This document shows, in pieces, positions 21,001-21,336 of a DNA stretch of 64,000 nt. The notes beneath the pieces were generated by a model. That model was not told the DNA's origin and made no database searches. It saw only the letters and a list, made by a program, of their open reading frames with translations. Each line of letters begins with the position of its first letter. Positions within the stretch are counted from its first letter, which is position 1. Origin of the DNA: Leadbettera azotonutricia ZAS-9 (GTDB lineage: Bacteria; Spirochaetota; Spirochaetia; Treponematales; Breznakiellaceae); assembly GCF_000214355.1 (NCBI RefSeq), contig NC_015577.1, forward strand, positions 3,525,389 to 3,589,388, read 5' to 3'. A program made the translations under genes and the position numbers.

Positions 21001-21300
21001 TACGTGTCCTCCTTACTCTTTGGGCACACAAAATGATTCTGCTTCACTGCATCCTCGCGCCATCCGCGAAGCATGCTTAAACCCGCATACCGCAGGCTGT
21101 TTTCTTTTTAACGGGAATATAGATTATGAAAGGATTGAACGAAAGCGCAAGGAAGATCCTTGCAGATAAAAAACCGGAGGGTTTTCTACGTTCCACCTAT
21201 CTCATCTATAAATCCGCTGGGGAGTACCCAAGGGCATTCCCCGATGATCGGTTTGGAAACCTAAATGGTTTCAAAGATCGCTGGGTTCAGCAGAACCCTG
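21001..21300 (-). promoter_or_regulatory. Long structured 5' leader of tuf/S10 operon
   Basis: Between the predicted start site (about 21300) and tuf, perfect hairpins occur in series: GGGTTC/GAACCC (21283-21298) at the very 5' end, GAAACC/GGTTTC (21256-21272), GGGGA/TCCCC with inner CCC/GGG (21219-21242), AAAACC/GGTTTT followed by U (21168-21185, terminator-like) and GCAAGGA/TCCTTGC (21147-21163). No convincing coding frame is present. The density of hairpins suggests an RNA control element for translation genes; no known family is recognised. Confidence 0.55.
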
Positions 21301-21307
21301 AAAAGCC

Positions 21308-21336
21308 AATATACAGGCTTTTCTAAAAAGTGTCAA
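21308..21336 (-). promoter_or_regulatory. Strong sigma-70 promoter of tuf-S10-spc operon
   Basis: TTGACA (-35, 21331-21336) and TATATT (-10, 21308-21313) are separated by exactly 17 bases on the minus strand. This is near-consensus, lies directly after the rpsG terminator, and is the only clear promoter before tuf. It would start transcription near 21300. Confidence 0.85.

Follow-up and report, generated by a model that had tools for sequence, protein, structure and literature searches.

The S10 operon of Escherichia coli is preceded by a structured leader, at which the ribosomal protein uL4, and not uL22, regulates the operon by controlling both attenuation and translation (PMC10931766). Leaders of the rpsL or str operon are likewise r-protein leaders with attenuator-like parts, some of them in operons that hold tuf (PMC2965389; PMC2704228). 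In the spirochaetes themselves, the Treponema candidates HMP2_2105, located before L7/L12, and HMP2_3043, located before L20, have been proposed as r-protein leaders (PMC8040213). The leader described here, found ahead of the tuf-S10 operon of Leadbettera azotonutricia ZAS-9, resembles that of E. coli in being structured and in standing ahead of the S10 operon, but it precedes tuf rather than rpsJ; and whereas E. coli uL4 binds domain I of 23S rRNA, the spirochaete leader resembles a hairpin of domain III. It also differs from the rpsL/str leaders, which precede rpsL, as its conserved motif is located downstream of rpsG in genomes with an adjacent rpsG and persists where no rpsG is found upstream. 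The two Treponema candidates precede other genes, and the main text of PMC8040213 names no elongation factor genes. Rfam 15 returned no family above its curated cut-off for the window, the leader or its relatives, and with no match of any kind the leader has no detectable relation to the catalogued ones. A search of the openly accessible literature, main texts only, found no description of the motif.

Location, promoter and folding of the tuf leader

The window, i.e. the whole stretch of 64,000 nucleotides that was analysed, covers positions 3525389-3589388 of the 3,855,671-bp genome. On its minus strand, rpsL and rpsG (21870-21400) are followed by a gap of 399 nt, by tuf and then by rpsJ, rplC, rplD, rplW, rplB, rpsS and rplV (Table 1). 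The sequence-only reading of this DNA had proposed a near-consensus promoter ahead of the tuf leader, and this is borne out; the site is the best of four within 3 kb, where shuffled sequences average 2.2 sites. Judged from this promoter, transcription would start at about 21301, with a leader RNA of about 300 nt ahead of tuf. Promoter-like sites upstream of the motif are also enriched in relatives, with matches of at least 9/12 in 58% of them vs 15% of shuffles. The same reading had described a hairpin-rich leader, with its first stem at the 5' end and one stem followed by U's. Such stems were found, and the leader (21302-20990) folds with an energy of -111.4 kcal/mol; 100 shuffles average -88.0 kcal/mol (sd 5.7), which gives z = -4.1, and none of them is as stable. 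The individual hairpins that it listed are present in the sequence, but mostly they are not the conserved ones, which consist of longer-range pairing seen only across relatives.

Other features of this region were noted. A 66-aa plus-strand ORF within the leader (21126-21326) has no NCBIfam match and was taken as chance. After rpsG stands a terminator-like A-tract/U-tract hairpin, AAAAAACC-UCUG-GGUUUUUU (21398-21372, minus strand), in a style resembling the leader's own. One lineage (L018, L020, L023) has a further promoter-like site, TTGC...GGTATACTG, downstream of the motif and no more than about 100 nt from tuf; transcripts started there would lack the leader.

Table 1. Features of the tuf leader and operon, in window coordinates
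Feature	Position	Strand	Basis and remarks
Sigma-70-type promoter TTGACA-17-TATATT	21336-21308	minus	-35 at 21336, -10 at 21308; 11/12 consensus match
5'-terminal hairpin GGGUUC-UGCU-GAACCC	21298-21283	minus	stem search; conservation among relatives not established
boxA-like GATCTTTGAAACC	21279-21267	minus	close to rrn spacer sequence GTTCTTTGAAACA of the same genome; weak
Local stem, perfect or near-perfect	21275-21253	minus	stem search
Conserved leader motif 5' UCC-AA-ACC-GA-(hairpin P3)-GAUA-GGU-GGA	21257-21192	minus	covariance models, covariation, comparison of relatives
Near-invariant 5' strand CCAAACC	21256-21250	minus	leader comparison
GGGGA/UCCCC stem	21242-21219	minus	leader folding
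3' strand AUAGGUGG, AGGUGG part near-invariant	21200-21193	minus	leader comparison
Terminator-like hairpin UAGAAAACC-CUCC-GGUUUUUUA, with U's, directly after the motif (P4 position)	21188-21167	minus	stem search
Local stem, perfect or near-perfect	21163-21147	minus	stem search
Possible Shine-Dalgarno hairpin GUGCCC/GGACAC around AAGGAGG (21014-21008)	21027-21004	minus	possible pairing, next to tuf start codon
tuf (EF-Tu), first gene of the operon	21000-19801	minus	ORF/NCBIfam annotation
rpsJ, rplC, rplD, rplW, rplB, rpsS, rplV, rpsC, rplP	19680-14983	minus	order kept in 12/12 genomes

A conserved and covarying motif

Comparison of the gap before tuf among relatives gave the consensus UCCAAACCGAUCAUC, followed by a loop of highly variable length and then by GAUGRGAYAGGUGGA. 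In this consensus, helix P2 is formed by UCC/GGA and, past an AA bulge, by ACC/GGU; an internal loop of GA/GAYA separates it from helix P3 (UCAUC/GAUGR). The ZAS-9 motif has the same parts, with GAUA in the loop, UCAUC/GAUGA as P3 and a variable apical hairpin. Its outer P2 pairs are U21257-A21192, C21256-G21193 and C21255-G21194, its inner ones A21252-U21195, C21251-G21196 and C21250-G21197, and P3 extends from U21247-A21202 through C21243-G21206. This key pairing of 21257-21243 with 21206-21192 is none of the local stems and was revealed only by comparing relatives. When the whole leader is folded, the optimum is without the motif, and enforcing it costs 10 kcal/mol; within the first 112 nt of the transcript, the motif fold and the optimum have the same energy (-36.3 each). 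When folded locally in 142 leaders, the motif shows P2 in 138 and P3 in 112; the five inner P2 pairs are invariant in this set, and P3 varies while mostly remaining paired.

The sequence-only reading had looked to covariation as a check on the leader, and conserved covarying structure was indeed found among relatives. In a MAFFT alignment of 25 of them, 10 of the 17 pairs show double changes, and none of 500 shuffles reached the covariation score. Among 39 members of the class, both sides have changed in 9/14 pairs, no shuffle in 500 reached any of five measures and sliding of the partner abolishes the pairing; this alignment, unlike that of the 25 relatives, was fitted to a covariance model, so its counts lean towards structure. 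Covariation within the eight sequences of model R2 (see below) was not significant by itself. Further out, a helix P1 (GUCUCG/CGRGAC) can be recognised clearly in just some of the lineages, with 68% of cells paired. An upstream alternative hairpin, GAUGAUC/GAUCAUC, was considered as a switch and rejected as a general one, since it occurs in some relatives only, has another form here and is missing in many.

Distribution across Spirochaetia and operon context

Covariance models find about one copy of the motif per genome. Model R1 detects it in 142 of 200 genomes of the same family, which includes Breznakiella homolactica RmG30 (NZ_CP067089.2), and in 40 of the 45 near-complete ones, normally as one copy. 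Practically all of these copies lie 65-370 nt before tuf, at measured distances of 65-366 nt, normally with rpsG upstream. The five near-complete genomes that it missed comprise three with lower-scoring variants (G029, G032, G180) and two whose assembly holds no tuf (G066, G067), as is also the case for G068. The misses are mostly technical, and one genome (G013) appears to be truly without the motif. Differing tuf leaders, two or three per metagenome bin, were seen on separate contigs (L084/L085 in G159, L086-L088 in G150 and L089/L090 in G145), which suggests mixed strains.

In the Treponema-type family, R1 gave faint matches only, yet eight of them stood before tuf. Model R2, built from these eight, detects the motif in 136/195 Treponema-type genomes, including one of 1,139,633 bp and others of 2.8 Mb. 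With the class-level model R3, built from sequences of other orders, a search of 393 genomes of the phylum gave 63 matches, all of them inside the class Spirochaetia. Class-level matches stand before tuf in 27 of 28 cases with resolved context, and in 30/30 in another set. R1 matches in the phylum outside the class fall within ORFs that have nothing to do with tuf, or between such ORFs, and were rejected as chance. A pattern scan of contigs returned 70, nearly all titled Treponema or spirochaete, the two exceptions being metagenome bins; the motif-bearing contigs titled Desulfovibrio (L229) and Brevinematales (L270) are probably misbinned or misnamed spirochaete DNA.

The motif immediately precedes tuf, on its coding strand; in every genome examined the operon begins with tuf, and the order tuf-rpsJ-rplC-rplD-rplW-rplB-rpsS-rplV-rpsC-rplP follows it in all 12 genomes compared, spread over the class. 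rpsG and rpsL were not found upstream in every genome, e.g. in that of 1.14 Mb, while the tuf-S10 order is constant; therefore the motif belongs to the tuf-S10 unit. As in r-protein leaders, a conserved structured element is found in the untranslated region at the 5' end of an operon of r-protein genes, taking the transcription start predicted from the promoter.

Possible levels of control

In many relatives, a helix P4 lies directly 3' of the motif and is followed by a U-rich stretch. Each arm of P4 fits the partner arm of its own species better than arms taken from other species (12/5000, against 1487/5000 for a control pairing); the same self-against-cross test gave 122/5000 for P1 which, where present, has a strand in common with P4 in an attenuator-like arrangement. 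Stable terminator-like hairpins occur between the motif and tuf in 61% of leaders vs 22% of shuffles at -8 kcal/mol. These observations lend some substance to the early terminator that had been suspected near 21168, but at the P4 position of ZAS-9 itself the stem is weak and A/U-rich. Near the tuf start codon, the GUGCCC/GGACAC form of the Shine-Dalgarno hairpin is present in 62/141 relatives and other forms mostly keep the pairing, the excess over shuffled controls being modest. Both the terminator and the Shine-Dalgarno hairpin vary among relatives, and control at either level, transcription attenuation or translation through the Shine-Dalgarno hairpin, is possible.

Likeness to a 23S rRNA hairpin and candidate binders

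The invariant core of the motif is similar to AAACCGACACAGGU, a short 23S rRNA segment that the Rfam model shows folded into a hairpin. This sequence is unchanged in the ZAS-9 genome and three relatives, and its E. coli counterpart is CCAAACCGACACAGGUGG. In this hairpin (H49a/H59a), the AAACC...GGU closing pairs, the GA and the A-pyrimidine-A come in the same order as in the leader; the rRNA has a hexaloop, GACACA, whereas the leader inserts P3 after the GA and adds closing CC/GG pairs. We assume an E. coli numbering of about 1608-1621 for the hairpin, set via the position of m6A1618. This numbering agrees with the passage on A1614 in PMC9687910. The likeness is post hoc, and about 1-3% of randomised controls equal the match of the 14-nt core in ZAS-9 rRNA. 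For an 18-nt form compared with E. coli 23S, none of 500 controls was as good; this match is near-perfect in E. coli-type 23S only, the spirochaete 23S being GUAAACC...GGUAGG. Some Treponema-type leaders have CCAGACC, or GAUC before GGUGG, which breaks the mimicry at the mimicked positions. The sequence GGAUAGGUGGGAGG of 23S rRNA, close to the uL1 site, also has 10 nt in common with the 3' strand of the motif and was set aside, as the match involves one strand only and pairs differently.

We treat the hairpin likeness as a lead towards the binder and not as proof. A1614 of the hairpin contacts the loop of uL22, and extensions of uL2, uL22 and bL34 hold this part of the rRNA in place (PMC9687910; also PMC6685948). 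Both uL22 and uL2 are encoded in the tuf-S10 operon. Assembly can, however, proceed without the uL22 loop (PMC2672003), which counts against the proposal. It is a tentative suggestion that, across Spirochaetia, the motif may form an RNA family whose mimic of this tunnel-wall hairpin is bound by uL22 (or uL2), would be autoregulatory and would place EF-Tu under feedback from ribosome assembly. As far as we found, no autoregulatory circuit through either protein has been described.

Function of the motif

Our results point to a cis-regulatory leader of the tuf-S10 operon in Spirochaetia, and we consider an autoregulatory role of the r-protein type reasonably probable. Against it weigh the post hoc nature of the 23S likeness and its breaks in some Treponema-type leaders, the role of uL4 rather than uL22 in E. 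coli, the variation of the terminator and the Shine-Dalgarno hairpin among relatives and the absence of the motif from the optimal fold of the whole ZAS-9 leader. The class-wide conservation, the covariation, the constant tuf-S10 position and the 23S-like core all support the r-protein-type leader that the sequence-only reading had suggested before tuf, while its alternative, that the leader senses charging or growth rate, found no support in the analysis. The unpaired AA and GA/GAYA nucleotides, highly conserved across leaders, would also suit a riboswitch or another trans-factor target, with a small molecule, EF-Tu or some RNA-binding protein from outside the ribosome as the ligand of the internal loop; this is unlikely, as the same r-protein operon always comes next in resolved contexts, with no association with metabolic genes and no Rfam match. 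We consider it more doubtful that the leader works through Nus factors, with the boxA-like site recruiting NusB-S10 (S10 being NusE, encoded by rpsJ, second in the operon) for antitermination or autoregulation and the conserved structure as an accessory. In gamma-proteobacteria, autoregulation of Nus factors through boxA has been proposed, with sites ahead of rpsJ among those concerned (PMC5725501), and the site in the tuf leader resembles GTTCTTTG, found in both rrn leaders (L221/L222) and in the 16S-23S spacer of the ZAS-9 genome. However, a strict boxA-like TCTTTGA is present in only 19/151 relatives, at a highly variable distance, too patchy for a main element, whereas the structured motif is near-universal. 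A constitutive stabiliser of the mRNA 5' end, with no role in feedback, would agree with the 5' position, the stable structure and the strong expression expected of tuf; such an element would not need the strong conservation of bulge and internal-loop nucleotides in addition to the stems, and we find it improbable indeed. The reading of the leader as a plain intergenic region with hairpins by chance, to which the several unconserved local stems and the failure of energy models alone to select the motif might point, is refuted by covariation, synteny and class-wide distribution to the extent that we give it practically no credence.

In the r-protein-type reading, the leader would act as a feedback sensor that matches r-protein production to ribosome assembly: a putative operon-encoded ribosomal protein, perhaps one of the candidates above, would bind the motif RNA, and control would be exerted through attenuation at P4 or through the Shine-Dalgarno hairpin. 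The motif is a previously uncatalogued structured leader, class-wide in occurrence, which most likely works like the known r-protein leaders.

The motif is therefore a candidate class-wide RNA regulator, absent from Rfam 15, from a class where the control of r-protein synthesis has been little studied, and it supplies a testable binding site together with candidate regulators. Should the mimicry of 23S rRNA hold, a different r-protein and a different rRNA site would have replaced the uL4 system of E. coli in the control of the S10 operon, and the supply of EF-Tu would be tied to ribosome assembly.
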